A stretch of DNA of 64,000 nucleotides from Streptomyces kronopolitis. Lineage in GTDB: Bacteria; Actinomycetota; Actinomycetes; Streptomycetales; Streptomycetaceae. A program made the position numbers and the translations under genes. Positions 1 to 64,000 of the stretch are shown piece by piece. The stretch is taken from NCBI RefSeq assembly GCF_014646275.1, contig NZ_BMND01000001.1, positions 186,001-250,000 on the forward strand, read 5' to 3'. Each line of letters opens with the position of its first letter. The first letter of the stretch is position 1. Under the pieces are notes generated by a model that was given only the letters and a program-made list of their open reading frames with translations, was not told where the DNA came from and did no database searches.

Positions 1-987
1 CCCCGCCCCGGCGACGACGTGCACTGCCTCTGGACCGATACGGCCACCCCGCCGCAGATGCGCTCCACCGCGGGGACCCGGCTCCCGGCGCTCGCCACCC
101 TGCCCGCCCGTACCCCGGGCCGGCACCGCGAACTGTGGACCCCCGGCCCGGACGGGCCCGTGCACACCCTGCTCAGCGAGCCGGACACCGCCGGTGCCGG
201 CCGGCGGCCCCCGCTGGTGTTCCTGGTGCACGGCGGCCCCGCCGACCACGACCGCGACGCCTACGACCCGGAGGTGCACTCCCTGGTCGCCTCCGGATTC
301 GCGGTCGCCCGGGTCAACTACCGCGGCTCCACCGGCTACGGACCCCGCTGGCGCGCCGCGTACCGCGAGGGCGTCGGGCTCACCCAGGTCGCCGACCTCG
401 TCGCGGTCCGGGCCGACCTGCTGCGCCGCGACCTGGCCCGCGCGGACGCGATCGGCCTGTGGGGCACCTCCTGGGGTGGCTATCTGACGCTGCTGGCGCT
501 CGGCACCCGGCCGGACCTGTGGCAGGCCGGGGTCGCCGTCAAACCGGTCGCCGACTGCGCGGCGGCACACCGCACCGGCACCCCCGCGCTGCGGGCCCTG
601 GACGAGCGGCTGTTCGGCGGCACCCCCGACGAGGTCCCCGAACGCTACGCCCGCAGCTCACCCCTGCACCACGCCGCCGAGGTCCGTGCCCCGCTGCTGG
701 TGATCGCCGCCACCCTCGACGCCAAATGCCCGCCCGGCCAGGTACGCGGCTATCTCACGGCGCTGCGCGAGGCCGGGGTGCCGCACGAGTCCGAGTGGCT
801 GGAGACCGGCCACGACGGATACACCGGCGCCCACCATGTCGCCGTCCTGCGGCGCGCCATGGGCTTCCTGGACCGGCATCTGCGCCGCGCCCCCGCGGCC
901 CGTCGAACTCCCCGTTCCCCAGCGGACGGGGTCTTCGGGGACACCGCACCATCCGGTGCCCCGGAGTGCACGACGCATGTTCCGTAA
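1..987 (+). CDS. S9 family peptidase (prolyl oligopeptidase type), 5' end missing
   Basis: This is the C-terminal catalytic part of an alpha/beta-hydrolase peptidase of the S9 (prolyl oligopeptidase/acylaminoacyl peptidase) family. The reading frame is open to the left edge, so the N-terminal beta-propeller lies outside the window. An oxyanion-hole HGGP motif, the nucleophile motif GTSWGG (Ser codon 469-471), an Asp in LDAKCPPGQ and a His in GHDGYTG form the expected Ser-Asp-His triad in order. It ends 23 bases before a small peptide gene and lies in line with a B12 radical SAM gene, so it may be the protease that trims the modified peptide. That role is inference from context; the enzyme class is clear from sequence. 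The last 40 or so residues are a Pro/Ala/Arg-rich tail. Confidence 0.88.
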   Translation, partial: PRPGDDVHCLWTDTATPPQMRSTAGTRLPALATLPARTPGRHRELWTPGPDGPVHTLLSEPDTAGAGRRPPLVFLVHGGPADHDRDAYDPEVHSLVASGFAVARVNYRGSTGYGPRWRAAYREGVGLTQVADLVAVRADLLRRDLARADAIGLWGTSWGGYLTLLALGTRPDLWQAGVAVKPVADCAAAHRTGTPALRALDERLFGGTPDEVPERYARSSPLHHAAEVRAPLLVIAATLDAKCPPGQVRGYLTALREAGVPHESEWLETGHDGYTGAHHVAVLRRAMGFLDRHLRRAPAARRTPRSPADGVFGDTAPSGAPECTTHVP

Positions 988-1010
988 TCCGCCAGAAGAG
1001 GAGAACCGCC

Positions 1011-1130
1011 ATGCAGAAGGACATCATCCACAACGACCCGCTCGAGGGCGACGAGGAGAACCGCCGGCCGGGCATCGGCATCACGGTGACCGTGCCGTTC
1101 CGCACCGCTGAGGACACCGAGGAGGACTGA
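1011..1130 (+). CDS. Candidate RiPP precursor peptide, 39 aa
   Basis: This is a 39-residue open frame with a good ribosome binding site (AGGAG about 8 bases before ATG), between a peptidase gene and a radical SAM gene. The N-terminal half is acidic and charged (starts MQKDIIHNDPLEG). The centre is a short beta-branched stretch, GIGITVTVPF, after an RRPG sequence. The C-terminus is acidic (TAEDTEED). Small size, position and lack of any domain fit a precursor substrate for the adjacent B12 radical SAM enzyme. The Ile/Thr/Val residues with unactivated carbons in the central stretch are natural candidates for C-methylation, but the core boundaries are inferred. I do not recognise the family by name. 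A strong hairpin starts 7 bases after the stop codon. Confidence 0.7.
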   Translation: MQKDIIHNDPLEGDEENRRPGIGITVTVPFRTAEDTEED

Positions 1131-1136
1131 CCCTCC

Positions 1137-1168
1137 CCGGCCGGCCCGGCGCCACCCGGGCCGGCCGG
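1137..1168 (+). terminator. Strong hairpin after precursor gene (attenuator candidate)
   Basis: A perfect 13-base inverted repeat (1137-1149 and 1156-1168) with a 6-base loop sits directly after the precursor stop codon and before the radical SAM gene. Such partial terminators behind precursor genes are well known to let the peptide be made in excess over its modifying enzymes. No U-tract follows, which is usual in high-GC actinobacteria. Confidence 0.6.
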
Positions 1169-1235
1169 ACCGTGCACCGCACCGGCCGGCCGCCGGCCGT
1201 CTCCCGCCCCATCCGCCGTCGTACGTGGAGCCGCT

Positions 1236-3167
1236 ATGCGCGTCCTGCTGGTCAACATGCCCTGGTCCCCGATCGATCTGCCCTCGCTCGCCCTCGGAAT
1301 CCTGCGAAGAAGCGTCGACGAGCGCACCTCCGGGCACGCCGAGGTCCTGCACGCCAACCTGGAGTTCACCGACTGGATCACCCGGCGCTGCACCTTCACC
1401 GGGGACGACTACCAGTTCTACGCGCTCTCCTCGTACTTCATGGGCTGCGGCGACTGGGTGTTCTCCTCCGCCCTCTACGACGACCCGACGTGGCGCGCCG
1501 AGGAGTTCTCCACCTCCATGAAGGGCAAACTGCGCGCCGAACGGCTGCGGATGTCCCACGAACTGCACGCCGTGGTACCGGAGTTCGTCCAGCAGATCGC
1601 CGAGCGGATCGTGACGGCCGGCCCCGATGTCGTCGGCTTCACCTCCACCTTCCAGCAGAACACCGCCGCGCTGGCCGCCGCCAAGTACGTCAAACGCCTC
1701 GCCCCGCACATCAAGACCGTCATGGGCGGCGCCAACTGCGACGCCGAGCAGGGCGCCGCCGCGCACCGCAACTTCCCCTTCCTGGACTTCGTGGTCCGCG
1801 GCGAGGGCGAGGCCGCCTTCCCACAGCTGCTGACCGCCCTCGACGAGGGCACCGAGCTGTCCGCCGTCCCCGGGCTCTGCCACCGGCAGCCCGACGGCAC
1901 CAGCACCGCCAACGCGATGAGCACCAGCCCGCTGCCGCCCGCGACCATCCTCCCGCCCGACTACAGCGGCTACTTCGAGCGGCTGGCCTCGTCGGTGGCG
2001 CGCAACTGGGTGGAGCCCAAGCTCGTCGTCGAGGGGGCCCGCGGCTGCTGGTGGGGCGAGAAGCACCACTGCACCTTCTGCGGCCTCAACGGCTCCTTCA
2101 TGCAGTTCCGCAGCAAGAGCCCGGAGACCTTCTACGAAGAGATCATGGAGATGGCCCGCCGCCACCGGGTGCTGGACATGTACCTCGTCGACAACATCCT
2201 CGACATGGGCTACCTCACCACCGTCCTGCCCCGCATCATCGACAGCGGCTACGACCTGCGGATGCACATCGAGATCAAGGCCAATATGCGCCGGGCGCAG
2301 CTGCGCACCCTCGCCGAGGCCGGAATGATCTACGTCCAGCCCGGCATCGAGAGCCTCAACAGCCGGGTGCTCGACCTGATGGACAAGGGCGTGAGCGGCT
2401 GCCAGAACGTCCGGATGCTCCGCGACGGAGCCGAGACCGGCCTGTCCGTCTCCTGGAACTACCTGCACGGCTTCCCCGGCGAGACGGCCGCCGACTACGA
2501 GCCCGTCATCGCCCAGATACCGGCCCTGGAACACCTCAACCCACCGGTCGACCTGTCCGCCCGCATCGCCATCGAACGCTTCAGCCCCTACTTCAACCGG
2601 CCCGAACTCGGCTTCACCGGACTGCGCCCCGAGGAGCACTACCGCTTCACCTACGACCTGCCCGAGTCCGAACTGCTGGACCTGGCCTACGTCTTCGAGG
2701 CGCCCGAACGCGGCATCACCGAGCCCACCGTCACCGCGCTCAACGACGCCCTCGGCGCCTGGAAGAAGCACCACGCCGACGCCCGCCTCACCCACGCCGA
2801 CCTCGGCGACCGCATCGTGCTGGTCAGCCGCCGGCGCGCCTTCGACTGGGGCGCGCGGGAACTCACCGACCCCCTGGAGACCGCGGCCTTCCGCCTCCTC
2901 GACCAGCCGCACGCCCCCGCCGCGCTGACCCGCAAACTCGCCGCGCGGCTGCCGGACCGCACCGTCGACGAGGCCGCCGTCCACGCCCTCCTCCAGCACT
3001 GGGTGACGCTCGGGCTGGTCTTCACCGACGGCGGCCAGTACGTCCATCTGGCCCCCGCCGCGGTCAACGAGGACCTGCTGCGCCTCGACTTCATGCGCCA
3101 CACCCATGCCGTCGCCGCCCCGCAGGAGCAGCCGGACGACACCGCCCGCACCGTCGCCCACGTCTGA
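1236..3167 (+). CDS. B12-binding radical SAM RiPP maturase (C-methyltransferase type)
   Basis: A 643-residue enzyme with an N-terminal cobalamin-binding-like region (about residues 1-200; GADVVGF-type core at PDVVGFTSTFQ and FVVRGEGEAAF) and a radical SAM core from about residue 255. The cluster motif is C271-X7-C279-X2-C282 (GCWWGEKHHCTFC), an atypical spacing compared with the canonical CX3CX2C. I associate this arrangement with the family called ribosomal peptide maturation radical SAM protein 1 / RiPP C-methyltransferases. The expected reaction is SAM- and B12-dependent methylation of unactivated carbons in the peptide encoded just upstream. The C-terminal 150 residues resemble a winged-helix substrate-handling region. 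Start at ATG 1236 after GTGGAG. It is followed after 22 bases by the DUF5825-like gene. Confidence 0.88.
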   Translation: MRVLLVNMPWSPIDLPSLALGILRRSVDERTSGHAEVLHANLEFTDWITRRCTFTGDDYQFYALSSYFMGCGDWVFSSALYDDPTWRAEEFSTSMKGKLRAERLRMSHELHAVVPEFVQQIAERIVTAGPDVVGFTSTFQQNTAALAAAKYVKRLAPHIKTVMGGANCDAEQGAAAHRNFPFLDFVVRGEGEAAFPQLLTALDEGTELSAVPGLCHRQPDGTSTANAMSTSPLPPATILPPDYSGYFERLASSVARNWVEPKLVVEGARGCWWGEKHHCTFCGLNGSFMQFRSKSPETFYEEIMEMARRHRVLDMYLVDNILDMGYLTTVLPRIIDSGYDLRMHIEIKANMRRAQLRTLAEAGMIYVQPGIESLNSRVLDLMDKGVSGCQNVRMLRDGAETGLSVSWNYLHGFPGETAADYEPVIAQIPALEHLNPPVDLSARIAIERFSPYFNRPELGFTGLRPEEHYRFTYDLPESELLDLAYVFEAPERGITEPTVTALNDALGAWKKHHADARLTHADLGDRIVLVSRRRAFDWGARELTDPLETAAFRLLDQPHAPAALTRKLAARLPDRTVDEAAVHALLQHWVTLGLVFTDGGQYVHLAPAAVNEDLLRLDFMRHTHAVAAPQEQPDDTARTVAHV

Positions 3168-3189
3168 CGCCGGTCCCCGAGGAGACACC

Positions 3190-3858
3190 ATGCACACCAC
3201 CGCCACCCCCACCGGACCCGTGCTCAGCGCCTGGCGCGACTACGACGAGGCCGCCTGCACCCTGCCGGGCATGAGTCTGGGCCCCCTCGATCCGGCCGGC
3301 CCGCCGGAGGAGCAGGCCGACCGGCTGTGGGAACTCGGGGTACGCCGGGTGCGGTTCGCCGAGGAGATCGACCTGACCACCGTCGACGATCCCGGCGCCG
3401 CCGCGCAAGCGGTCCAACATCTGTGCCTGATACGGGATCTGACGGCTCGTGCGGTTCTCGTCCAGTGGCAGCTGCGGCTGCCGGCCGAGCCGGACGACGG
3501 CTGGCGCGACCTCAGCCACCTCCAGCCGCCCCGCACCCTCACCGGCCCCGCCGACCCGGCCGCCGCCCTCGCCCTGTGGCGCGACCAGCACTACCTCTGC
3601 AAATGCCTCTGGCGCCAGGGCCCGGGCTTCGTCCAGATCCGCGACCGGCGCTGGGGCGACCTGCGCCGCTTCACCGCGGACGAGCCCGGCTACCGGGAGG
3701 CGATCGGCCGGCTGGCGTACGGCGCCCCGCTGTCCGCGGTGCCCGAGTCCATCACCGCCGACTTCCTGGCGGAACGGCTGATCGCCCGCGCCGGACCGCT
3801 GGCGTGGTGGCTGCCGTACCGGGTCAACCGGTGGATCCAGGAGGCGATGGCCATCTGA
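3190..3858 (+). CDS. DUF5825-like RiPP accessory protein
   Basis: A soluble 222-residue protein starting at ATG 3190, 22 bases after the radical SAM gene and preceded by GAGGAGA. It has no membrane segment or signal peptide. The C-terminal half has a Cys/Trp-rich segment (HYLCKCLWRQGPGF) and a run of basic and aromatic residues. Its placement immediately after a B12 radical SAM maturase matches the DUF5825 proteins that I recall as regular neighbours of these enzymes. A role as substrate-recognition or chaperone partner is inference; no catalytic motif was seen. The longer frame open from 3106 overlaps the radical SAM gene and has no ribosome site, so ATG 3190 is preferred. Confidence 0.75.
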   Translation: MHTTATPTGPVLSAWRDYDEAACTLPGMSLGPLDPAGPPEEQADRLWELGVRRVRFAEEIDLTTVDDPGAAAQAVQHLCLIRDLTARAVLVQWQLRLPAEPDDGWRDLSHLQPPRTLTGPADPAAALALWRDQHYLCKCLWRQGPGFVQIRDRRWGDLRRFTADEPGYREAIGRLAYGAPLSAVPESITADFLAERLIARAGPLAWWLPYRVNRWIQEAMAI

Positions 3859-3979
3859 GGCCCGGGGGCAGGCAGCACCCCGGCCGCATGCCGCCGGTGG
3901 GCTTCCGGGTTCGCGCCGCGAGCCCGGGGCAGACGGCAGTACGTCCTCGACGGCGGGGCAGCGGCTTTCAGGAGGCAAC

Positions 3980-4822
3980 ATGGACGCGACAAGCGCGATA
4001 CCCGATGCGGGCGGGCGCCTGGTCCGGCGGGGTGCGCGCAGCACCGCGATCCGCACCGCGGCGCGCTGCGGATTCGCGGCACGGGGCGTGATCTACCTCC
4101 TGGTCGGCGTACTGGCCCTGCGGATCGCCTTCGGCGACTCCCATGAACAGGCGGACCGGGGCGGGGCGCTGGCGGAGATCGCCACCCGCCCCTTCGGCAG
4201 CCCGCTGATCTGGGCACTCGGCCTCGGACTGGCCGGGATGGCGCTGTGGCGCCTCACGGAGGCACTGATCGGCGCCTCGGGACCCGACGGGCACAAGCCC
4301 CACAAGCGGCTGCTGTCCCTGGCCCGCTGCCTCTTCTACGCCACCGTGTCGTTCTCCGTCCTGGCGTTCGCCGCGGGCCGCAAGGGCGACGGCAGCGGGT
4401 CCAGCGACCGGCAGTCCCGGGACGCGACGGCCCGGGCGCTCGAACTCCCCGCCGGTCCGTGGCTGGTGGCGGCCGCCGGGGTGGGCATCGCCGTCGCCGG
4501 GGCGTGGATCGCGGTGCGCGCCGCCCGCCGCCGGTTCCACAAGGACCTCCGGCGGGAGGAGATGCCGCGCCGCGTGCGGCAGGCCGTCGATGTGCTCGGC
4601 GTCGCGGGCGGCGCGGCCCGGGGTGGTGTGTTCGCCGCGGCCGGGGTGTTCGCCGTCCGCGCCGCGGTCCACCACGACCCGGGGAGCGCCAAGGGCATGG
4701 ACGACACGCTCCGCTCCCTCGCCGACACCGCCGCCGGCCCCTGGCTGCTGGTGGCGGTCGCGGTGGGCCTCGCCCTGTTCGGCGGGTTCTCCCTCGCCAT
4801 GGCCCGGTGGCGCCGGCTCTGA
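3980..4822 (+). CDS. DUF1206 family membrane protein
   Basis: A 280-residue integral membrane protein with about six hydrophobic segments arranged as three similar units. Each unit carries the characteristic GFAARGVIYLLVGV-like or AARGGVFAAAGVFAV-like helix that defines DUF1206, a duplicated family common in actinobacteria. The start at 3980 has a near-perfect AGGAGG ribosome site eight to nine bases upstream. It stands alone, ending convergent with the sigma factor gene and separated from it by a very strong hairpin. Molecular function is unknown. Family assignment is from sequence pattern. Confidence 0.82.
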   Translation: MDATSAIPDAGGRLVRRGARSTAIRTAARCGFAARGVIYLLVGVLALRIAFGDSHEQADRGGALAEIATRPFGSPLIWALGLGLAGMALWRLTEALIGASGPDGHKPHKRLLSLARCLFYATVSFSVLAFAAGRKGDGSGSSDRQSRDATARALELPAGPWLVAAAGVGIAVAGAWIAVRAARRRFHKDLRREEMPRRVRQAVDVLGVAGGAARGGVFAAAGVFAVRAAVHHDPGSAKGMDDTLRSLADTAAGPWLLVAVAVGLALFGGFSLAMARWRRL

Positions 4823-4857
4823 CGGGCCCGGCGACTGCGGCCGCCGCACCGACGACC

Positions 4858-4896
4858 GCGGGCGGGCCCCGGCCATCTCGGCCGGGGCCCGCCCGC
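4858..4896. terminator. Bidirectional terminator, 17-bp perfect stem
   Basis: Arms 4858-4874 and 4880-4896 are perfectly complementary over 17 bases, with a 5-base loop (atctc). It lies between the convergent DUF1206 gene and the sigma factor gene, so it can serve both strands. Confidence 0.8.
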
Positions 4897-4913
4897 GAAC
4901 ACAACGCTTCCGG

Positions 4914-5771
4914 TCAGCGGTCGCTGAGCATCCCGGTGCGCAGCTTGGTCAGGGTGCGGGTGAGCAGCCGCGAGACATGCATCTGGGAGACGCCCAGCTC
5001 CTCGCCGATCTGGGACTGGGTCATCTCCTGGCCGAAGCGCAGCTCGATCAGCTGGCGCTCGCGCGCGTCGAGCTGCTGCAGCAGCGGCGCGAGGGTGTGG
5101 AGGTCCTCGACGGCCCCCATGGCCGGGTCCTCCTCGCCCAGCACGTCGGCCAGGGCGCGGCGCTGGTGGGAGGGATCGGGGTCGGTGGGGGTGTCCAGCG
5201 AGCCGGCGGAGTAGCCGTTCGCCGCGACGATCCCCTCGATGACCTCTTCCTCGGACAGGTCGAGATGGGTGGCCAGCTCGTGGACCGTGGGGTCGCGGTC
5301 GAGCCGGAGGTGGAGCGCTTCCTTGGCCTTCGCCAGATCGCTGCGCAGCTCCTGGAGCCGGCGCGGGACGTGCACCGCCCAGCCGGTGTCACGGAAGAAG
5401 CGCTTGATCTCGCCGAGGATGTACGGCACGGCGAACGTGGAGAACTCGACCTCACGGGAGAGGTCGAAGCGGTCGATGGCCTTGATCAGCCCGATCGTGC
5501 CGACCTGGATGATGTCTTCCATGTCGTCGCCGCGATTGCGGTAACGGCGCGCCACGTAGCGCACCATCGACATGTTCATCTCGATGAGCGTGTTCCGCGC
5601 GTACTGGTACTCGTGCGTGCCCTCCTCCAGGAACCGCAGCCGGTCGAAGAACTGCCGCGACAGCTCCCGCGCGTCCCTCGGAGCCACCGCGCTCGGGCAT
5701 TCCACCTCCGGCAGTGCGGCGGCCAGGTCGGAGTGCTGCTCGGTAGCGGTGTCGTTCACGACGGTGGTCAT
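4914..5771 (-). CDS. SigB/SigF/SigG-type stress RNA polymerase sigma factor
   Basis: An alternative sigma factor of the SigB/F/G class, used in actinobacteria for osmotic, oxidative and developmental stress responses. Region 2 is visible as MVRYVARRYRNRGDDMEDIIQ and GLIKAIDRFD...EFSTFAVPYI. Region 3 is about DPTVHELATHLDLSEEE. Region 4 has the helix-turn-helix MTQSQIGEELGVSQMHVSRL. Two adjacent ATG codons follow GGAGGGC; ATG 5771 gives the better five-base spacing, and 5774 is the alternative. A frame open to 5840 exists, but a SigB-like promoter candidate (5818-5842) lies inside it, which favours the shorter start. The anti-sigma antagonist gene lies just upstream on the same strand. No anti-sigma kinase gene is present in the window. 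Confidence 0.92.
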   Translation of the reverse strand: MTTVVNDTATEQHSDLAAALPEVECPSAVAPRDARELSRQFFDRLRFLEEGTHEYQYARNTLIEMNMSMVRYVARRYRNRGDDMEDIIQVGTIGLIKAIDRFDLSREVEFSTFAVPYILGEIKRFFRDTGWAVHVPRRLQELRSDLAKAKEALHLRLDRDPTVHELATHLDLSEEEVIEGIVAANGYSAGSLDTPTDPDPSHQRRALADVLGEEDPAMGAVEDLHTLAPLLQQLDARERQLIELRFGQEMTQSQIGEELGVSQMHVSRLLTRTLTKLRTGMLSDR

Positions 5772-5817
5772 CATGCCCTCCCCGCGCGCCCGGCCCACGC
5801 GGACGCGCAGCGCTCGC

Positions 5818-5842
5818 CTACCCACCATGAACACTTCCATGC
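5818..5842 (-). promoter_or_regulatory. SigB-like promoter candidate for the sigma gene
   Basis: Reading the minus strand, GCAT, a 15-base spacer and GGGTAG match the GNNT-N14-16-GGGTAT/C pattern known for Streptomyces SigB-type promoters, with the last base diverging. Transcription would start about 37-40 bases before the sigma gene start, implying autoregulation. Confidence 0.45.
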
Positions 5843-5915
5843 ACGTGACCTGCGTCTCATGATCACCTGCTCGTCGCCCGCAGCGGTCGGGGCCGGCCGC
5901 CGCCCGCGCCCCCGC

Positions 5916-6344
5916 TCACTCCACGGCGTCCGGGCCGGGCTCCGTGCCGGTCTCCGTACCGGGCTGCGACCCCTGCGGCAGCGAGGCCGCCGCGAGCGCG
6001 AAGAGCGCCTCCTCGGGGCTGGCGTGCACCGGCATGGAGACGCTGAGGCCGGTGAGGTCGAGGAGGCGCAGGACCACGGGGGAGACCGCGGCCAGCCGCA
6101 GGCTGCCGTCCACCCGCTTGGTGTCGTTGCACGCCCGGATCAGAACGTTCAGACCGGAGGAGTCCATGAACGGGACCGCCCGCAGGTCAAGCACCAGATG
6201 CTGCCGGCCGTGCACCAGTTGGTTGGCGAGCTGGTGGTGCAGCATGGTGCCGGTCTCCGCGTCGAGGTCGCCCTGCACGACCACGACCGCCACCTGCGGA
6301 TCGATGACGGACACCTCGACGCTCAACTCATCGGTCCTCACCAT
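5916..6344 (-). CDS. STAS-domain anti-sigma factor antagonist
   Basis: A 142-residue single STAS domain protein of the SpoIIAA/RsbV/BldG type. The regulatory segment FMDSSGLNVLIRAC contains the conserved DSSG, whose serine is phosphorylated by the partner anti-sigma kinase. The unphosphorylated form sequesters the kinase and frees a sigma factor. After about residue 120 the protein continues into an unstructured Gly/Glu/Pro-rich tail. ATG 6344 has GATGAGG five bases upstream. It is transcribed towards the sigma factor gene, 144 bases away, so the two probably act in one partner-switching circuit. Which sigma factor it controls is inference from proximity. Confidence 0.9.
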   Translation of the reverse strand: MVRTDELSVEVSVIDPQVAVVVVQGDLDAETGTMLHHQLANQLVHGRQHLVLDLRAVPFMDSSGLNVLIRACNDTKRVDGSLRLAAVSPVVLRLLDLTGLSVSMPVHASPEEALFALAAASLPQGSQPGTETGTEPGPDAVE

Positions 6345-6386
6345 GCGCGCCTCATCCCTTCGCCACTGATCAACGGTGGCCCTCGT

Positions 6387-6411
6387 GTACCCACTCGTCC
6401 CCCCTTCAGTC
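6387..6411 (-). promoter_or_regulatory. SigB-like promoter candidate for the STAS gene
   Basis: On the minus strand, GACT, a 15-base spacer and GGGTAC fit the GNNT-N14-16-GGGTAT/C pattern. The predicted start lies about 36 bases before the STAS gene start. The -35 end overlaps an imperfect 13-base tandem repeat (ttcagtcggg at 6405-6414 and 6418-6427). Confidence 0.5.
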
Positions 6412-6479
6412 GGGCCTTCAGTCGGGACGGCGCACGGCGGGGCGGGGAGGGACGGCGGCGCAGGTCGGGAGCCTGCTCG

Positions 6480-7007
6480 TCACTCCGTCAACTCCCATGT
6501 GTCGAGCGGGAGTTTCCAGATGTTACGGCGGTGCGCGGCCTCGAAGCTGTCGTGCAGGGCGGAGGGCGGTACGGCCAGCACCGGGCAGCGGGCCCGGGCG
6601 AGGCAGTGGCGGGCGACCGAGGGCCACACGGCCCGCCGCAGCCTGCCGCGGGCGCCGGCCCCGACCACCAGCAGATCGTCGCTCCGGTCGGCGGCCTCCA
6701 CCAGCACCGCGCCCGGTTTTCCGAGCACCACAAGACACTCCAGGGGCACGCCGGGCCCGGCATCGCCGAAGGCGTCCTCCAGCGCGGTCAGCAGCCGCGT
6801 GCAGGCCATCCGGCGCCAGGCGGCCAGCGGCGCCGGGCACGGTCCGCCGCGGTGCACGATGTCGCCGCCGGGCGGCTCCCAGGCCAGGACGGCCCGCAGT
6901 TCGCCGCCGTGGAGACGGGCCTCGGCGGCGGCCCGGTGCAGCGCCGTCAGACTCCCCAGCGAACCACTCACCCCGGCCACGACGCGCCGCACGCCCGGTC
7001 CGTCCAT
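6480..7007 (-). CDS. Universal stress protein (Usp)-like protein
   Basis: A 175-residue protein with the Usp alpha/beta layout: an N-terminal strand RRVVAGVSGSLGSLTAL, a central LECLVVLGKPGAVLVEAA, and a C-terminal DDLLVVGAGARGRLRRA segment. The last corresponds to the ATP-binding loop G-2X-G-9X-G(S/T) but is imperfect: the final glycine is not where expected, so nucleotide binding is uncertain. The start at ATG 7007 has AGGAG upstream. The longer overlapping frame to 7562 runs through the neighbouring permease gene and is not used. Usp proteins in actinobacteria often accompany stress regulons, which fits the nearby sigma factor genes. Confidence 0.78.
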   Translation of the reverse strand: MDGPGVRRVVAGVSGSLGSLTALHRAAAEARLHGGELRAVLAWEPPGGDIVHRGGPCPAPLAAWRRMACTRLLTALEDAFGDAGPGVPLECLVVLGKPGAVLVEAADRSDDLLVVGAGARGRLRRAVWPSVARHCLARARCPVLAVPPSALHDSFEAAHRRNIWKLPLDTWELTE

Positions 7008-27312: not shown

Positions 27313-27825
27313 CTACAGGCGGGAAAGCCGCTCGACCTCATGCGCATAGCGGTGCCGCCGCCCTATTTCGTGCGTGACCTTTCCGACGGCCGCCGCACAC
27401 ACATATCCGGCTATGCCGCCCGCGGTATTGGAGAGAAGGTCGTTGAGATCGGCCGTGCGGCCGGACGCGGTCAGATACTGCGTGACCTCGATGGCGAGGG
27501 AACCGAGAAAGACGAGCGCACCGGCCTGCCACAGACCCGTGCGCAGCACGCCGAGCAGAATGCCACCGGGCGCGAACATCGCCATGTTCAGCAGGAAATC
27601 GACGAGGTCCGCGGGATTGCCCAGATCGAGCAGCGCCATATTCACCGCCTTGCCGCCGCCGGACCGGGTGCCGAAGGTGAGCCCGATGACGCAGGCGACC
27701 CACAGCCACCCGAGAGATGCCACCACGCGGTGGGCGATTCGGCGGGGGCGATCGGCCAGCGTGCTCCATACGGCGATCAGCACGCTGCCGAGGACGCCGG
27801 CAGCAAGGGCGAGGGAAAGCGACAC
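27313..27825 (-). CDS. VanZ family membrane protein
   Basis: A 170-residue VanZ-like protein with five predicted membrane helices. Hallmarks are VIGLTFGTRSGG, NPADLVDFLLNMAMFAPGGILLG (the conserved D..xN..xFxPxG motif) and SLAIEVTQYLTASGRTADLNDLLSNTAGGIAGY (E..Q and DxxDxxxNxxGxxxG). VanZ proteins confer low-level teicoplanin resistance in enterococci, but most homologues have unknown roles in the cell envelope. The start is ambiguous: GTG 27825 with GAAGGA upstream is preferred, and the frame is open to 27888. It is divergent from the teichoic-acid-type transferase gene. Confidence 0.85.
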   Translation of the reverse strand: MSLSLALAAGVLGSVLIAVWSTLADRPRRIAHRVVASLGWLWVACVIGLTFGTRSGGGKAVNMALLDLGNPADLVDFLLNMAMFAPGGILLGVLRTGLWQAGALVFLGSLAIEVTQYLTASGRTADLNDLLSNTAGGIAGYVCAAAVGKVTHEIGRRHRYAHEVERLSRL

Positions 27826-28195
27826 GCGCAGTCCGTCCTTCCGGGTTTTCGCCTCCCGGAAAACCGCTCGCGAAAGCGGCACTCGCAAGCCGGTCCGCGG
27901 GAGGATTCATCGGCATTCCTGGCACATAAAGGTGTATATGGAGGGACGCGCGACGTGCGGGGCACGTTCATTTGTGCGCCGTGAAATACGTCACCGGCGC
28001 TCGGCGCTCGGCGTCGCGGCACGTCGCGGGGAGCCGCCGGCGGTGCCGTGCGGGCGATCCGGGTGTGATGGACACAACAGAAGGTGCGCCCGGGACGTGT
28101 GCAACCCGGGGGTCCTTTCGCTTGTCACACCCACAGTCAACCAGGAATTCCGGCCCGCGTCGTGCGGCCGACCGCGTTCTAGGAGTAACCCCGCC
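27826..28195. other. Divergent intergenic region, no gene seen
   Basis: About 370 bases between the VanZ gene and the GT2-TagF fusion gene, containing promoters for both. It includes less GC-rich patches (for example around 27925-27990). No coding frame or riboswitch was convincing. Confidence 0.45.
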
Positions 28196-30523
28196 ATGCC
28201 CGAAACGGGCCTCAGATCCGCCCCGCGCTTCAGCATCGTCGTCCCCGTGTACAACGTGCAGGGCTACCTTCGCGAGTGTCTGAACTCGTTGCTGGCGCAG
28301 GACTTCACCGATTTCGAGGTCATCGCGGTCGACGACTGCTCGCTGGACGGCAGCGGCGGCATCCTGGCGGAGTACGCGGCCCGCGACCCGCGGGTGCTGA
28401 CCGTGCGCCACGAGGAGAACCGCGGCATCGGCGCGGCCCGCAACACCGGCGTGGACCGGGCGAGCGGGGACTACCTGCTGTTCCTCGACAGCGATGACAC
28501 CCTCACCACGGGCGCGCTGCGGGCGATGGCCGACCGCCTGGCCGGCGCCGCCGACCCGGACCTGCTGCTCTTCGACCATGTACGTAGCTACTGGTGGCAC
28601 GCCGTCCAGCCCAGCGCCGCCCGCGAACTCCTCGCCGGGGCCGGGTCGGAGGTGTTCCGGCCCGCCGAGCGCACCGAGTTCTTCCAGATGTTCGCCGTCG
28701 TGTGGAACCGGGCATTCCGCCGCTGCTTCTTCGTCGACAACGGATTCCGGTACACCGACGGGCTCTACGAGGACGCCCTCATGGTCTACACCACCATGCT
28801 CACCGCCGAGCGCGCCCTGTGTCTGGACCACGCCTGCGTGGACTACCGCCAGCGCCGCCACGGCAATTCCATGAAGACGCCCGGCCGGAAGCACTTCACG
28901 ATATTCGAGCAGTACCAGCGGCTCTTCGCATTCCTCGACGGCCGGCCCGACCTCGCCGCGCTGCGGCCGCTGTTCTTCGAGCGGATGATCAGCCATTTCC
29001 TGTTCACCGGCGCCCGCGAGAGCCGCGTCCTCGTCCAGGACCGGCCGGAGTTCTTCCGCCGTGCCGCGGAGATGTACCGGCGCCACAAGCCCGCCGGATT
29101 CACCCCGCCCGCGGAGGTCGACGCCCGTCAGTTCCAGGCACTGGAACGCGGCTCGTACCGCCTCTTTCAGGCTGGGGAGCTGATGAGCCGCACGCGGAAG
29201 AACGGGCAGGAGCGGCTGCGCGCGGCACGCGGCGCACTGAGCAAGCGGGCGTCCGGCAGCTATTACCGCAAGCAGCTCAAGCGCCCGCTCGACCCGCACC
29301 TGGCCGTCTTCAGCGCCTACTGGAATCGCACCCCGTCCTGCAATCCGCTGGCCGTCCACGAGAAGGCGAAGGAGCTGGCGCCCCACCTCCACGGCGTATG
29401 GGTGGTGCGCGAGGACCTCGCGGACACCGTGCCGGACGGCATGGACCATGTCGTCGTCAATTCGCCGCGCTACTGGGAGGTGATGGCGCGCGCGACGTAC
29501 TTCGTCAACAACGTCAATTTCGCGGACGGCGTGGTCAAACGCCCGGGGCAGATCCATCTCCAGACCCACCACGGCACTCCGCTCAAGCGGATGGGAATCG
29601 ACCAGCAGCAGTACCCGGCCGCCGCGAAGGGCATGAGCATGCGCAAGCTGCTGGCCCGCGCCGACCGCTGGGACCTGTCGCTCTCCGCCAACCAGCACAC
29701 CACCGAGCAGTGGGAGCGGGTCTACCCCTGCGACTTCGAGTCCGTCGACGCCGGCTATCCCCGCAACGACGTGTTCTTCCGGACCGGCGCCCGGGACGTC
29801 CTCGACATCCGCGCCCGCCTGGGCATCGCACCCGGCGCCACGGCGGTCCTCTACGCCCCGACCGTGCGTGACTACCAGGTCGGCTATGTGCCGCAACTCG
29901 ACCTGGAGAAGATCACCAGGGAACTCGGCCCGGAGTTCGTCCTCCTGGTGCGGACCCACTACTTCTACGGCCAGGACCCGCACCTCCAGGAACTCCAGGA
30001 GCGCGGGGCGCTGATCGACGTCTCCCGGCACCCCTCGGTCGAGGAGCTGTGCCTCGCCGCGGACGCCCTGGTCACGGACTACTCGTCGATCATGTTCGAC
30101 TACGCCAACCTCGACCGGCCGATCGTCACCTACGCGGACGACTGGGAGACCTACGTCCGCTCCCGCGGCGTCACCTTCGACCTGCTCTCCGGCGAGCCCG
30201 GCGACACCCCGGGGGCGATCGCCACCGACGAGGACGAGCTGATCGAGGCGTTCCGCAGCGGCCGCTGGGACGACCAGGCGGCAGCCGAGCTGCGCGCCGC
30301 GTTCCGCGCGCGCTTCTGCATGTGGGACGACGGGCACGCCGCCGAGCGCGTGGTGAGCCGGGTCTTCCTCGGCGACCAGCACCCGGCCCCCGCCCCTCTT
30401 CCGCTCGCCGCGCGCACGCCCGCGCCCTCCCCGCGGGAGGCCGCCCGGATCGTGGCGGGCGCCGCCCCCGTGCCCGCCGGGGACGGCGCACCCGACCGTC
30501 CCGGCGCCGAACTGACCGGCTGA
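28196..30523 (+). CDS. GT2 glycosyltransferase fused to CDP-glycerol glycerophosphotransferase
   Basis: A 775-residue two-domain cell-wall polymer enzyme. Residues about 10-230 form a family 2 glycosyltransferase: FSIVVPVYNVQGYLRECLNS, VIAVDDCSLDGS and the DXD-type LLFLDSDDTL. Residues about 370-730 form a TagF/TagB-like CDP-glycerol:polyglycerophosphate transferase, with LQTHHGTPLKRMG (catalytic His region), ALVTDYSSIMFDYANLDRPI and VLLVRTHYFYG. Such fusions in Streptomyces take part in teichoic-acid-like polymer synthesis. The last 60 residues are Pro/Ala-rich. ATG 28196 has AGGAG ten bases upstream. It lacks membrane helices, so it probably works at the inner membrane face. Confidence 0.9.
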   Translation: MPETGLRSAPRFSIVVPVYNVQGYLRECLNSLLAQDFTDFEVIAVDDCSLDGSGGILAEYAARDPRVLTVRHEENRGIGAARNTGVDRASGDYLLFLDSDDTLTTGALRAMADRLAGAADPDLLLFDHVRSYWWHAVQPSAARELLAGAGSEVFRPAERTEFFQMFAVVWNRAFRRCFFVDNGFRYTDGLYEDALMVYTTMLTAERALCLDHACVDYRQRRHGNSMKTPGRKHFTIFEQYQRLFAFLDGRPDLAALRPLFFERMISHFLFTGARESRVLVQDRPEFFRRAAEMYRRHKPAGFTPPAEVDARQFQALERGSYRLFQAGELMSRTRKNGQERLRAARGALSKRASGSYYRKQLKRPLDPHLAVFSAYWNRTPSCNPLAVHEKAKELAPHLHGVWVVREDLADTVPDGMDHVVVNSPRYWEVMARATYFVNNVNFADGVVKRPGQIHLQTHHGTPLKRMGIDQQQYPAAAKGMSMRKLLARADRWDLSLSANQHTTEQWERVYPCDFESVDAGYPRNDVFFRTGARDVLDIRARLGIAPGATAVLYAPTVRDYQVGYVPQLDLEKITRELGPEFVLLVRTHYFYGQDPHLQELQERGALIDVSRHPSVEELCLAADALVTDYSSIMFDYANLDRPIVTYADDWETYVRSRGVTFDLLSGEPGDTPGAIATDEDELIEAFRSGRWDDQAAAELRAAFRARFCMWDDGHAAERVVSRVFLGDQHPAPAPLPLAARTPAPSPREAARIVAGAAPVPAGDGAPDRPGAELTG

Positions 30524-37544: not shown

Positions 37545-40500
37545 ATGACGGACCCGCACGAGAACCCCGCACCCGCGTCCGCCTCGGCGCAGACCCGGAC
37601 CGCATCGCCGGTCCGCGGGTCCGGCGGCGTCCGTCCGGTGCCCCCGTGCTCGCTCGGCGACCTGTTCGCCGCATGGGTGGCACGCACCCCGGAGGCACCC
37701 GCCGTCACGGACGGGCGGCGGACCTGGTCCTACCGCGCACTCGACACCTGGGCCAACCGCCTCGCGCACGACCTGATCGCCCGCGGGGCGGGGCCCGAGC
37801 GCACGGTGGCGCTGGTGCTGCCCCGCTCGGTCGAACTGATCGTGGCGGAACTGGCCGTGGCCAAGGCGGGCGCCGCGTTCCTGCCCGTCGACCCGGCCTA
37901 CCCCGCCGAACGCCGGGCGATGATGCTCGCCGACGCGGCGCCCGCCGTGGTCCTCGACGAGGTGGCCGACACCCGGCCCGCCGGCGGCCCCGAGCACAAT
38001 CCGCAGGACGCGGACCGGTGCGCGCCGCTGCACACCGGGCACCCGGCGTACGTCATCTTCACCTCGGGGTCGACCGGCGTCCCCAAGGGGGTGACGGTCA
38101 CCCACACCGGGCTGGCCGGCTTCGCGGCGGCCGCGGCCGACCGCTACGCCGTGGAACCCGGGGACCGCGTCCTGCAGTTCTCCTCCCCGAGCTTCGACGC
38201 CGCCGTCCTGGAGCTGTGCGTCTCCCTGCTGTCCGGCGCCACCCTCGTGGTGCCGCCGGACGGCCCGTGGCTGGGCGACGAACTCACCGATGTCCTGACC
38301 GCGCACCGCATCACCCACGCCCTCATCCCGCCCGCCGCGCTCGCCACGCTGCCCGCCCCGGCCGGCGACCGCGGCCTGCCCGATCTGCGGACCCTGATCG
38401 TGGGGGCCGAGGCCTGCCCGGCCGACCTGGTCGACCGCTGGGCCGCCGGCCGCCGGATGGTCAACTCCTACGGGCCCACCGAGGCCACGGTCGTCGCCTC
38501 CTGGACCGGGCCCCTGGCCGTCGGCGGCGGCACCCCCACCATCGGCGGGCCGCTGCCGTACACCCGGCTGCGGGTGCTCGACGCGGCGATGCGCCCGGTG
38601 GCGGAGGGCGCCAGCGGCGAGCTGTACGTGGGCGGCGACGGGGTGGCCCGCGGCTACCTCAACCGCCCGGGCCTGACCGCCGCGCGCTTCGTGGCCGACC
38701 CGTACGGGCCGTCCGGCAGCAGGCTCTACCGCACCGGCGACCTGGCGCGCTGGAACGCCGACGGCGAGCTGGAGTTCCTCGGGCGGCTCGACCGGCAGGT
38801 CAAGATCCGCGGCTTCCGGGTCGAACTCGGCGAGATCGAGGCGGTGTTGGCGGCCCATGCCGATGTTGCCGAGGCGGTCGTCCTGGTGCGCGAGGACGAG
38901 CCCGGCCGGCAGCGGCTGGTCGCCTATGTGACACCGGCGGACCCCGCCCGGCCCCCGCAGACCACCACCTTGCGCACGGCGGTCTCCCGCAGCCTGCCGG
39001 CGCACATGGTGCCGTCCGCCGTCGTGGTCCTGGCGGCGTTCCCGCTCACCGCCAGCCACAAGATCGACCGGCAGGCCCTGCCCGCGCCCGGCCCGGAGCG
39101 CACCGCCGGCCACCTCGCGCCCCGTACCCCCGCCGAGCGGACCGTGGCCGGCATCTGGTCGGACGTGCTGGACGTGCGGCCCGTCGGCGCCGAGGACGAC
39201 TTCTTCGCGCTCGGCGGCGACTCCGTCCTCGCCGTGCGGGTCCTCTCCCGGATCCGCGAGGAGCGCGGGGTCCGGCTGACCGTGCGGGACCTGTTCACCG
39301 CCCGGACGGTCGCCGACGTGGCCGCACTGCTCGACGGGGCGGCCGCCGACGACCCCGCGACGCCGATCCCGCCGGCCCCGCGCGAGCGGCCGCTGCCGCT
39401 GTCCGCCGCCCAGCAGCGGCTGTGGTTCCTCGACGACCTCACCGCCGGCTCCGCCGAGTACAACACCGGTGTCGGGGTGCGGCTGCGCGGCCGGCTGGAC
39501 CACGCCGCGCTCGGCCGCGCCCTGGACCGGCTCGCCGCCCGCCACGACGCGCTGCGCACCACCTTCACCACGGTCGACGGACGCGGCGTGCAGCGGATCG
39601 ACGACACCGCCGCGCTGCCGCTGCGCACCGTCGACCTGCGCCCGCTGCCCGCCGACCGGCACGAGGCGGAGACCGAGCGCCTGCTGACCGAGGAGCTGGA
39701 GCGCCGCTTCGACCTGGGCGAGGGCCCGCTGACCCGCGCGCTGCTGATCCGGTGCGCCGACGACGAGCAGCTGCTGCTGCTGGCCCAGCACCACCTCGTC
39801 ACGGACGGCTGGTCGGTCGGCATCCTGGTGCGCGAACTGGCCGCGCTGTACGCCGCCGAGGTCACCGGGGAGCCGGACGGGCTGCCGCAACCGGCCCTGC
39901 AGTACCCGGACTTCGCGGTCTGGGAGCGTGACCGTCCGGCGCCGTCCGGGCACGCCGAGGACCTCGCGTACTGGAAGCGGCACCTGTCCGGGACCCCGCA
40001 GCTGGACCTGCCCACGGACCGGCCCCGGCCGCCGGTGCGCAGCACGGCCGGCGCGGCCCACCGCCACGAGCTGCCCGCCGACCTGGTGGCGCGGCTGGGC
40101 AGACTCGCCCGCGCCAAGGGCACCACCCCCTTCACCCTGTTCTCCGGCGCGGCCGCGGTGCTGTTCTCCCGCTACTCCGGTCAGCGGGACATCGCGTTCG
40201 GCACCGTCACCAACGGGCGCCACCGCCGCGAACTCGAGGACGTGGCGGGCTTCTTCGTCAACACCGTGGTCCTGCGGAGCGAGGTCGACGGCACGGCGAC
40301 CGTCGACCGGTTCCTGGACACCGTGCGGGCGACGCTGATGGACGCCTTCAGCCATGACGGCGTGCCGTTCGCCCGGGTCGTCGAGGAGCTGGCCCCGCCG
40401 CGCGACCCCAGCCGCACCCCGCTGGTGCAGGTCCTGGTCGTCCAGCAGACCGCCATGGTGCACCCGCGGGAGGCCGGCGGCATCCGGATCGAGGAGCATC

Positions 40501-43500
40501 CGCTGCCGCGTCCGGCCGCACGGTTCGACCTGGTGCTGGAGTTCCTGCCGCGCGCCGACGGCTCCTTCGGGCTGACCGTCGAGTACAACACCGACCTGTT
40601 CGACGCCGCGACCGTGGCCCGGATGAGCCGCCATCTGCACCTCCTGCTGGAGGGCATGGCGGACGGCCCGCACCGGACCGTGGCCGAACTCCCGCTGCTG
40701 ACCGACGACGAGCGGCGCACCATGCTCGACGCCTGGAACACCCCGCAGCACGAGGAGGCCGCCCCGACGACGCTGCCCGCGGTCTTCGAGGCGCAGACCC
40801 TGCGCACCCCCGACCGGACCGCCGTGGTCTGCGGCGGCACCCAGCTCACCTACGACGAGATCAACCGCCGCGCCAACCGGCTGGCCCGGCTGCTGATCGA
40901 CCGCGGGGTGGGCCCGGAGTCCCTGGTGGCGCTGGCGCTGCCGCGCTCGGCCGACCTGGTCGCGGTCCTGTGGGCGGTGCTCAAGGCGGGCGCCGGCTAT
41001 CTGCCCGTGGACCCCGGCTACCCGGCCGAGCGCATCCGCTTCATGCTCGCCGACGCCGCGCCGGCCACCGTCCTGACCACCCGTGACACGGCCGGCTGCC
41101 TGCCCGAAGGCACCGAGCGGCTGGTGCTGGACGACCCGGAGACGCTGGCCGCGCTGCCGAGCCACCCGGAGCACGACCTCACCGACGACGACCGGGCGCG
41201 GCCGCTCGACCCCCGCCACCCGGCCTACGTCATCTACACGTCGGGCTCGACGGGCCGGCCCAAGGGCGTGGTGGTCTCGCACGCCAGCGTGGCCGACCTG
41301 GCGGTGTGGGCGGGGGAGCAGTTCGGGCGGCAGCAGCTGACCCATGTGGTGGCCTCCACCTCGCTCAACTTCGATGTCTCCGTCTTCGAGCTGCTGTGCC
41401 CGCTGCTGTCCGGCGGCAGCATCGAGGTGGTGGCCGACCTGCCGGCCCTCGCCGACCGGGCGGACGGCGCCCCGCGGCAGGCCGGGCTCATCAGCGGGGT
41501 GCCCTCGGTGGTCTCCCGGATGCTCACCACGGATGCCGCGCCCGTCCAGGCCGACACGGTGGTGCTGGCCGGCGAGGCGCTGCCCGCACAGACCGTGCGC
41601 GACCTGCGCCGCACCATGCCGTCCTGCCGGGTCGCCAACATCTACGGCCCGACCGAGGCCACCGTGTACGCCACCGCGTGGTTCGCCGGCGACGGCACCC
41701 CCGAGCAGGCCCCGCCGATCGGCCGGCCGGTCGCCCGGACCCGCGCCTACGTCCTGGACGCCATGCTGCGGCCGCAACCCCCGGGCGTGACGGGTGAGTT
41801 GTACCTCGGCGGCGGCGGCCTCGCGCGGGGCTACCTGCGGCGGCCCGGCCTGACCGCCACCCGGTTCGTCGCCGACCCCTTCGCCGGGCCGGGCAGCCGG
41901 ATGTACCGCACAGGCGACCTGGTGCGGTGGACCGCCGGGGGCGAGCTGGAGTACGTCGGCCGGGTCGACCAGCAGGTCAAGGTGCGCGGCTTCCGGATCG
42001 AGCTGGGTGAGGTGGAGGAGGCGCTGCTGCGCTGTGCCGGGGTGGCCCAGGCGGCCGCCGCCACCCGGGAGAGCGACGGTCACAAGCGCCTGATCGGCTA
42101 TGTCGTGCCGGCGCCCGGGGCGGAGCCGGACCCGGGCGCGCTGCGCCGCGAACTGGGCCGCAGTGTGCCCGACTACATGGTGCCCTCGTCGGTCGTCGTC
42201 CTGCCGGCGCTGCCCCTCAACCCCAACGGCAAACTGGACCGCGACCGGCTGCCGGCCCCCGACCGGACCGCCGCGGGCACCACGGCGTACGTGGCGCCGC
42301 GCACCGCCACCGAACGGGCGCTCGCCGCCGTGTGGGCCGAGGTCCTGCGGGTGGAGCGGGTCGGCCTGGAGGACAACTTCTTCACGCTGGGCGGGGACTC
42401 GATCCTCAGCATCCAGGTGGTGGCCCAGGCACGGCAGGCGGGCCTGGCCGTCACCTCCCGCGACGTCTACCGGCACCAGACGGTCGGCGCCCTCGCGCAG
42501 TGCGTGGACGCCGCCGGGCGCCCGGCCGCCGCCCCTGCCGAGGCGGCCGCCACCGGCACCGCGCCCCTGACCCCCATCCAGCACTGGCTGTTCGAGACCG
42601 ACGCCGAGCGGGCCGGGCACTTCGGCCAGACGCTGTCCGTCGAGCTGTCCGACGACGTGGACGCCGCGCTGCTGGACGCCGCCCTGCGCGCGGTCGTCAC
42701 CCACCACGACGCGCTGCGCTCACGCTTCGCCCACGACAGCGACGGCCACCGGCTCCAGCACATCGACGCCGACGCGCCCGCCGCCGTGCTGCACCACCAC
42801 GCCGGCCCCGACGACGACACACCGCACCTCGGCCCGTTCGACCTGCGCCACGGCCCCCTGCTGCGCGCCGTGCTCCACGACCGGGGCGACGGGCGGCCCC
42901 GCGTACTGCACCTGACGGTTCATCATCTTGTGGTCGACGGCGTCTCCTGGCGCGTCCTGCTGGAGGACCTGGACCGGGCCTACCGCGCCGGGGCGCGCGG
43001 CGAGCGGGCCGCCGGGCTGCCGGCGAAGTCCTCCCCGCTGCGGCACTGGGCCCGCCGGCTCACCGAGCACGCCGCCACCGGCGGCTTCCAGGACGAGGCC
43101 GCGTACTGGACCGGACTGGCCCGCTCCTGCGACCCGGCGCTGCCCACCGACCTCGACGGCGCCAACACCTACGCCTCGGCCCGCTCGGTGACCGTCCGCC
43201 TGACCCCGCAGGACACCGCCGTCCTGCTGCACACCCTGCCCGGCGCCTACCGCACCCAGGTCAACGATGTGCTGCTGAGCGCGCTGGGCCGGGTGCTGCA
43301 CACGTGGACCGGCCGGGACCGGGTCCCGGTGGACCTGGAGGGCCACGGCCGGGAGGAGCTGTTCCCCGACGTGGACCTCAGCCGCACGGTCGGCTGGTTC
43401 ACCACCCGCTACCCGGTCGCCCTGACCGTGACGCCGGACGCGGACTGGGGCACCGTGCTCAAGTCGGTCAAGGAGCAGCTGCGGGCCGTGCCGCGCCGCG

Positions 43501-55500: not shown

Positions 55501-56183
55501 CCCGGATGTACCGCACCGGCGACCTGGTCCGGCGCGACGCGGGGGGCGAACTCCACCACCTCGGGCGCACCGACCACCAGATCAAGCTGCGCGGCCACCG
55601 CATCGAGGCCGGCGAGGTCGAGGCCGCCCTGACCCGGCACCCGGCCGTCCTGGACGCGGTGGTGACGGTGCGCGAGGACGAGCCCGGGCTGCCGCGGCTG
55701 GTGGCCCACCTGCTCGCCGTCCCCGGCGCCGACGCACCGGCCGGCCCGGAGCTGCGCGCCTTCGCCGCCCGCGGCCTGCCCGGCCACATGGTGCCCTCGG
55801 CCTTCGTCGTGCTGGAGCGCTTCCCGCTCACCGAGAACGGCAAGACCGACCGCGCGGCCCTGCCCGCGCCCGGACGGGACGAGGGGGAGACGGCCGGGCA
55901 CGTCGCGCCGCGCACCCCCACCGAGGAAGTCCTCGCCGACATCTGGTCCACGGCCCTGGAGACGGCCGTGGGCGTGGAGGACGACTTCTTCGCACGGGGC
56001 GGCGACTCGCTGCGCAGCCTGCTCATCGCCTCCCGGACCAACGAGACCTTCGGGGTGTCCCTCACACCCCGCGACGTGCTGGCCTCCCGTACGGTCGCCG
56101 CCCTGGCGGACCTGGTGGAGGAACACATCCTGCGCGAACTCGAAGACGCCGTACACGGCGACAGCGACCACGACGAACGGTGA
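37545..56183 (+). CDS. NRPS 1: five modules, A-T/C-A-T-E/C-A-T-E/C-A-T-E/C-A-T
   Basis: A 6212-residue nonribosomal peptide synthetase that activates and joins five amino acids. Module 1 lacks a condensation domain: A about 35-520, T Ser560. Module 2: C about 616-1060, A 1080-1570, T Ser1619, E 1674-2096 ([10 protein letters not shown]). Module 3: C 2128-2575, A 2588-3085, T Ser3135, E 3186-3620. Module 4: C 3655-4100, A 4112-4600, T Ser4651, E 4704-5138 ([10 protein letters not shown]). Module 5: C 5170-5620, A 5626-6110, T Ser6155. My pocket readings are DALLIGSVVK (A1, A5), DVFGVAIVYK (A2), DAYWWGGTFK (A3, Val-like) and DVFAVAIVYK (A4). C domains after E domains have the DCL start (PLTPTQ/M). 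RBS GAAGGA precedes ATG 37545. It is followed after 11 bases by NRPS 2. Confidence 0.95.
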
Positions 56184-56194
56184 GGACCGACCCC

Positions 56195-64000
<7,806 letters not shown>

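Follow-up and report, generated by a model that had tools for sequence, protein, structure and literature searches.

The window considered here is the whole stretch of 64,000 nucleotides that was analysed (G000:C1:186001-250000). Its first 3858 positions carry four genes, all on the + strand, that code for an S9 peptidase, a 39-aa frame, a B12 radical SAM (rSAM) enzyme and a DUF5825 protein. The first-pass annotation, made from the letters alone, had claimed these four same-strand genes and read them as a RiPP cassette; all four are real and conserved as an operon, and the cassette reading is supported by the comparisons presented below. The following features were located:

1 to 987, + strand: 3′ part of a gene for an S9/prolyl-oligopeptidase-type serine peptidase (MpcP-like); PF00326 (Peptidase_S9), E 3e-37
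1011 to 1130, + strand: 39-aa RiPP precursor, MQKDIIHNDPLEGDEENRRP followed by GIGITVTVPFRTAEDTEED, with the putative cut between the two parts
1017 to 1040, + strand: leader motif KDIIHNDP, precursor residues 3-10
1071 to 1100, + strand: putative core GIGITVTVPF, precursor residues 21-30, after Pro20 (probable boundary)
1137 to 1168, + strand: GC-rich hairpin directly after the precursor stop and before the rSAM gene, 13-bp stem in the predicted fold
1236 to 3167, + strand: putative B12-dependent radical SAM C-methyltransferase of the TIGR03975 family, 643 aa, 608.9 bits
2292 to 3056, + strand: C-terminal half of the rSAM enzyme, residues 353-607, apparently homologous to DUF5825 (hhalign)
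3190 to 3858, + strand: DUF5825 partner protein, 222 aa; PF19142, 257.5 bits (cut-off 25)
3307 to 3819, + strand: DUF5825 residues 40-210, apparently homologous to rSAM residues 353-607 (33-row profile)

The window edge cuts the S9 gene, and an 18 kb stretch that takes in the upstream sequence (L002) was examined together with the window. The full S9 gene (L002 9119-10987) has its start 882 bases ahead of the window and codes for 622 aa, a length that depends on the start codon that we chose. An MFS gene sits outside the window, just upstream (L002 7704-9122), and its last four bases are also the first four of the S9 gene; it is named after the annotated counterpart in S. clavuligerus and has a match in 17 of the 18 genome_contigs loci that hold the region, the exception being L050. 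With the upstream sequence included, the unit reads MFS - S9 - precursor - rSAM - DUF5825. None of these five genes contains a TTA codon, and bldA control is thus not suggested. The Rfam scan of L002 (18 kb) gave zero matches at gathering scores, so there is no cobalamin riboswitch in that stretch. The DUF1206 gene that follows on the same strand (3980-4822) was unmatched in the 20 genome_contigs loci and was therefore not counted in the system. Further along the + strand, the window holds a frame of 1049 aa that combines a glycosyltransferase 2 domain with a CDP-glycerol glycerophosphotransferase domain (27374-30523). Two large modular NRPS genes follow (37545-56183 and 56180-64000, the second leaving the window); the scanned parts of these contain condensation, AMP-binding and PP-binding domains.

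Residues Ser451, Asp534 and His565 of the S9 protein are invariant in 17/17 aligned orthologues and, from the motifs around them, are taken as its catalytic triad. The S9/POP peptidase is encoded beside the precursor, and its putative likeness to MpcP was judged by PF00326 and the conserved triad residues. According to the accessible text of PMC12951456, MpcP is a prolyl oligopeptidase (POP) that takes off the clavusporin leader.

The rSAM protein matches TIGR03975 at 608.9 bits against a cut-off of 281.85 and covers positions 1-605 of the 606 in the model, with a B12-binding domain at residues 119-198 and a Radical_SAM domain at 269-425. Cysteines C271, C279 and C282, which form the CX7CX2C motif, are invariant in all 31 aligned sequences (alignment A2, 31 of 41 located). 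Near the C-terminus, residues 552-595 give a weak PqqD match (E 0.2); among the 31 members, PqqD is matched in seven (best E 0.013) and HTH_20 in nine (best E 0.0005), all of these being weak matches.

Matches to the precursor protein at E ≤ 0.001 were found in 30 of 199 Streptomyces genomes, the genome under study counted, and the frame has the S9 gene on one side and the rSAM gene on the other in each of the 29 Streptomyces relatives that were fetched as stretches ending inside the flanking genes. S9, precursor, rSAM and DUF5825 occur together in 18 of the 20 DUF5825 loci of genome_contigs; in the other two (L044 and L045) the sequence starts at a contig end and does not include the precursor region. 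Over 41 of 48 copies (L024-L029 and L031 were left out of the selection counts for indels), pN/pS was 0.45 in the precursor frame versus 0.72 and 2.47 in two other frames, as calculated from pairwise counts with no tree and with identical copies included and not merged; by part, the values were 0.32 for the leader, 0.66 for the core and 0.51 for the tail. The sequence also shows a ribosome binding site. The 39-aa frame is a true gene and not a chance one. Recurrence, synteny and frame-specific constraint support the earlier proposal that the peptide is a RiPP precursor. Loci lacking the frame, or carrying it with no selection at the protein level, were looked for, and for this operon type the frame survived.

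As can be seen from the 41 copies counted, K3, D4, I6, N8 and P10 of the leader motif are unchanged in all of them, and Pro20 and Pro29 are likewise constant. The GIGITVTVPF segment to which the first-pass annotation had drawn attention is present in the frame; changes in the core are mostly I/V, G/S and T/K swaps, and its pattern is (G/S)(I/V)G(I/V)T(I/V)T(I/V)P. Since the core of L024-L029 is shorter, GVGVV(I/V)Y, and has neither Pro29 nor T-x-T, and since the L031 precursor has no Pro20, the product and its cleavage may differ across the group.

Within the genus, 49 of 199 genomes hold a DUF5825 that scores above the cut-off, as do 15 of 394 within the class and 4 of 396 within the phylum; these counts may be low, since only some of the first-look candidates in each genome were scored. 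At least one locus in another genus (G795, L125) carries S9, MFS, rSAM and DUF5825 together with the precursor motif KRVIKNDP. Short peptides that precede the rSAM gene at some divergent loci have K-x-V/I-V/I-x-N/S-D/N-P near the start and an end rich in V, I and T, and a looser form of the leader, KxVVxNDP, recurs in some otherwise unlike precursors at rSAM-DUF5825 loci. A motif scan of 3652 candidate short starts at 30 divergent rSAM loci (including L055 and L058, where no DUF5825 was found) gave nine hits in seven loci and no hit in the other 23. Eight of the nine are such peptides (L053, L092, L094, L098, L100 and L125), the ninth (L095) is doubtful, and L093 holds a near-miss, MKRRSVQNDP. 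In peptide ends that we picked ourselves, 58 of 111 residues are V, I or T versus 348 of 2239 in five larger proteins, a comparison that is a description and not a test. At both L053 and L100 there are two precursor-like peptides that have the leader motif in common but end differently. Seven loci (L102-L106, L108 and L054) carry conserved 27-28-aa peptides of the form (M/V)EIKK...EKRP(P)TR before the rSAM gene instead, and thus the leader motif is not universal; to our knowledge, this precursor-like type has no known product. At L107, an 85-aa frame with (A/S)VRVASSP repeats, a possible multi-core precursor, lies 320 bases before the rSAM match.

For the 121 nt around the hairpin that follows the precursor gene, z is -2.5, and 4 of 200 shuffles do as well. 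In the 62 nt downstream of the precursor, z falls below -2 at 43 of 48 loci, and at 30 of the 48 no shuffle out of 100 folds as well. A small frame just before an enzyme gene and then a strong predicted hairpin would also suit a short peptide with a regulatory or leader function for the rSAM gene, acting through attenuation at the hairpin and not as a substrate. We find this scarcely credible, since the frame is constrained at the amino-acid level, its leader being strict and the core changes being mostly I/V swaps; since the other precursor types at DUF5825 loci have only the leader motif in common; and since the paired peptides of L053 and L100 fit substrates better than attenuators.

The search of plasmid proteins retrieved an rSAM from Streptomyces clavuligerus that is 82.2% identical to the one in the window. 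On plasmid pSCL4 (NZ_CP016560.1, L052), the annotated genes code for an MFS transporter, an alpha/beta hydrolase, an rSAM enzyme and DUF5825, and the gap before the rSAM gene holds an unannotated precursor, MQKDVIHNDPLAGDEENRKPSVGITITVPFRNAEDADED. The same five genes are thereby present in the same order; the leader is nearly identical and the core follows the same pattern, GIGITVTVPF here versus SVGITITVPF in S. clavuligerus, with one G/S and two I/V positions different, while several residues differ in the tail. Our precursor is orthologous to the syntenic S. clavuligerus peptide. From the name, S. clavuligerus is presumably the clavusporin producer and L052 the published clavusporin locus, and the peptide would then be the published clavusporin precursor. 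Clavusporins reportedly carry methyl groups on unactivated carbons, reduce surface tension and promote aerial growth.

In the accessible parts of PMC12257519, of which PMC12026744 seems to be the preprint, a B12-rSAM and DUF5825 pair homologous to the one studied here C-methylates clavusporins. It follows from the clavusporin papers and the S. clavuligerus synteny that the gene set is already known. The first-pass annotation had stated that no characterised product exists for it, which does not hold: as far as the available text of the two papers goes, the homologous pair makes clavusporins (PMC12257519) and the POP MpcP is known (PMC12951456). An undescribed RiPP class was rejected on the same two sources, in the parts accessible, and on the synteny. 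The annotation had also called the beta-branched core suited to C-methylation, and homology to the clavusporin pair suggests that this reaction may occur. We are confident that the window operon is a clavusporin-type RiPP operon with a variant core.

The same enzymes could in principle carry out another reaction on the core, such as a cross-link or an epimerisation, and make a distinct, undescribed RiPP. B12-rSAM enzymes do have other reactions, as PbsB, described in the text seen of PMC12257519, cross-links aromatic residues. The same text has biphenomycin-like clusters that hold an MNIO and a further B12-rSAM, and in these MNIO clusters DUF5825 comes with the second B12-rSAM, next to YHxYxY precursors, and not with PbsB. 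The rSAM and DUF5825 pair of these clusters belongs to the same families as that of the window operon, whereas the precursors differ greatly, and the window operon showed no YHxYxY peptide. Since, in addition, GIGITVTVPF has no aromatic pair to cross-link, and the rSAM is 82.2% identical to a S. clavuligerus orthologue whose core differs only at the three positions given above, we hold a different reaction to be very unlikely and retain the clavusporin-type reading. YHTYTY peptides were observed near rSAM and DUF5825 in L097 (124, + strand) and at the end of L099, and both loci hold a further rSAM-like gene.

The pheganomycin-family cluster of S. globosus (L055) offers another comparison. Its rSAM is of the same family (37.6% identical) and carries a DUF5825-like segment, RRGPDWLTLFDTR, in the C-terminal half; an annotated pheganomycin-family precursor and a peptide ligase are present. 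DUF5825 is absent among the 12 annotated features of that stretch, and a tblastn search of the stretch gave a best E of 0.35.

In the window, the DUF5825 gene (PF19142) is adjacent to the B12-rSAM gene (TIGR03975). The start at 3190 is preferred; the longest possible frame starts at 3106 and runs over the end of the rSAM gene. From 41 located DUF5825 frames, 36 were aligned (A1; L054, L105, L107, L108 and L109 were omitted for uncertain starts or weak hits), and the 33 rows left after L052, L053 and L057 were dropped (A3) served for the structure model and for hhalign; L110 and L111 were never in the DUF5825 sets. All 33 members match PF19142, and none matches PqqD. The AlphaFold2 model made from the 33 sequences has a mean pLDDT of 90.5. 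A Foldseek search of the PDB with the model gave no match at E ≤ 0.001, and the one PDB sequence hit obtained with the DUF5825 profile (E 0.083) was discarded. In the VIA structure comparison all Z values were 5.5 or less, which is weak alone and was weighed only in combination with the profile comparison below: residues 5-135 are weakly like radical SAM NifB barrels (6y1x, Z 5.0 over 118 residues; 7jma, Z 5.1), and residues 133-213 are weakly like winged-helix-like domains, including ThcOx residues 11-89, which we take to be an RRE (DUF5825 137-201 on ThcOx 5lq4, a weak match with Z 4.2 over 60 residues at 2.3 Å). Together with the PqqD and HTH_20 matches described above, which are weak too, this may point to a candidate winged-helix (RRE-like) part in the rSAM, in DUF5825 or in both.

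Profile comparison by hhalign aligned DUF5825 residues 40-210 with rSAM residues 353-607 at a score of 50.2 (P 5e-6 for a single comparison), versus 29.0 for the best of 100 column shuffles, 17.1 and 16.1 for reversed profiles and 18.2 for the S9 profile. The two parts of the match also align separately: DUF5825 40-117 on rSAM 353-440 at 39.9 (maximum of 40 shuffles 19.5) and DUF5825 124-210 on rSAM 503-607 at 33.6 (shuffle maximum 23.2). Residues 134-222 taken alone gave 18.3, which is not significant (maximum of 40 shuffles 20.6), and with the rSAM as the query only its residues 502-606 align (score 35.4). A set of eight distant rSAM relatives (L055, L056, L058, L110, L111, L127, L128 and L130) produced the same register at 50.7.

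The match depends on which DUF5825 rows are used. The signal stems from the more divergent rows: the 14 that are not of the clavusporin type scored 60.1 and 59.3 with the rSAM profiles (shuffle maxima 21.6 and 24.9, 40 shuffles each), and four rows of a single type reached 51.7 (shuffle maximum 23.1) and 70.1 (P 2e-9; shuffle maximum 20.2), with the register unchanged. The 19 clavusporin-type rows scored 27.3 with the distant rSAM set, where the maximum of 40 shuffles was 27.4, and 16.7 with A2, where the shuffle maximum was 27.8. Since the clavusporin-type rows alone are without signal, the link of the window DUF5825 to the rSAM runs through its DUF5825 relatives, which, given that all 33 members match PF19142, plainly belong to one family with it. 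At the level of family models, hmmscan found no DUF5825 match in the rSAM and no radical SAM match in DUF5825. DUF5825 did not match the other rSAM family (L096, L097, L099 and L101; score 17.9), while that family matches the rSAM studied here at 146.2 over residues 127-457; the match of DUF5825 to the TIGR03975-type enzyme and not to the other family is taken as a sign of specificity.

Two BLAST pairs were tried. L103 DUF5825 matched the L055 rSAM in two collinear pieces, the first placing TLYHRRGPDFVTVLDRR on TLTYRRGPDWLTLFDTR (E 0.001) and the second ending with HLPPP on HLEPP (E 0.022); L104 DUF5825 matched the rSAM of its own locus in one piece, in register (E 0.029). In our reading, the predicted secondary-structure elements follow the same order in DUF5825 and the rSAM. 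The matched region excludes the CX7CX2C motif, the B12 domain and about rSAM residues 441-502. In all 41 loci compared, each of them found through rSAM or DUF5825, the DUF5825 gene comes directly after the rSAM gene in the same orientation. L101 contains a natural rSAM-DUF5825 fusion in one 856-aa frame (3964-6534, + strand) beside another rSAM-like gene. Outside the 41 loci, L126 (1729-6160) is an exception, with the two matches about 2.5 kb apart.

From these comparisons of sequence, DUF5825 appears to be a partial paralogue, or half-copy, of the C-terminal half of the rSAM that has neither the cysteine motif nor the B12 domain. Alternatively, DUF5825 could have a fold of separate origin that was recruited to act as a chaperone or electron donor, and its likeness to the rSAM would be due to convergence or chance. 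The failure of the 19 clavusporin-type rows, and of residues 134-222, to match the rSAM significantly when taken alone agrees with such an origin, as does the lack of a Foldseek match in the PDB at the threshold used. We nevertheless judge it unlikely, because the other 14 rows, and the four rows of one type, match the rSAM in the same register, the L103/L055 and L104 BLAST pieces are collinear or in register, and the order of predicted secondary-structure elements seems to be common to both proteins. The role of the DUF5825-like protein, which the first-pass annotation had left open, is thus partly answered: the protein appears to be a half-copy of the rSAM C-terminal half, and as such it may be a subunit that holds the leader.

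We lean towards a history in which DUF5825 arose by duplication, perhaps in tandem, of the 3′ half of a TIGR03975-type rSAM gene and lost the cysteines and the B12 domain. It would now be a half-enzyme without activity of its own that partners the active rSAM and grips the precursor through KxVVxNDP, and the enzyme with its half-copy would serve at least four otherwise unlike precursor types with beta-branched ends. In the operon studied here, the 39-aa precursor would be made in excess, helped by the hairpin after its stop codon, and winged-helix-like parts of the rSAM, of DUF5825 or of both would grip KDIIHNDP. Together with DUF5825, its catalytically empty half-copy subunit, the rSAM would methylate carbons of the beta-branched core, by analogy to the clavusporin pair. 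The S9/POP enzyme would then cut, probably after Pro20, as a POP is reported for clavusporins in the accessible text of PMC12951456, and the MFS protein would export the product.

In the literature on the pair, as far as its text was accessible, we found no statement of homology between DUF5825 and the rSAM and no explanation of what makes a partner protein necessary for these B12-rSAM enzymes; the primary clavusporin paper may discuss DUF5825. C-methylation of unactivated peptide carbons is hard chemistry. With the present operon, a known peptide family gains one further sequence variant. Should DUF5825 prove to be a half-copy of the enzyme that it accompanies, simple binding, deletion and domain-swap experiments could test its role, and the L101 fusion offers a single-chain version to study.
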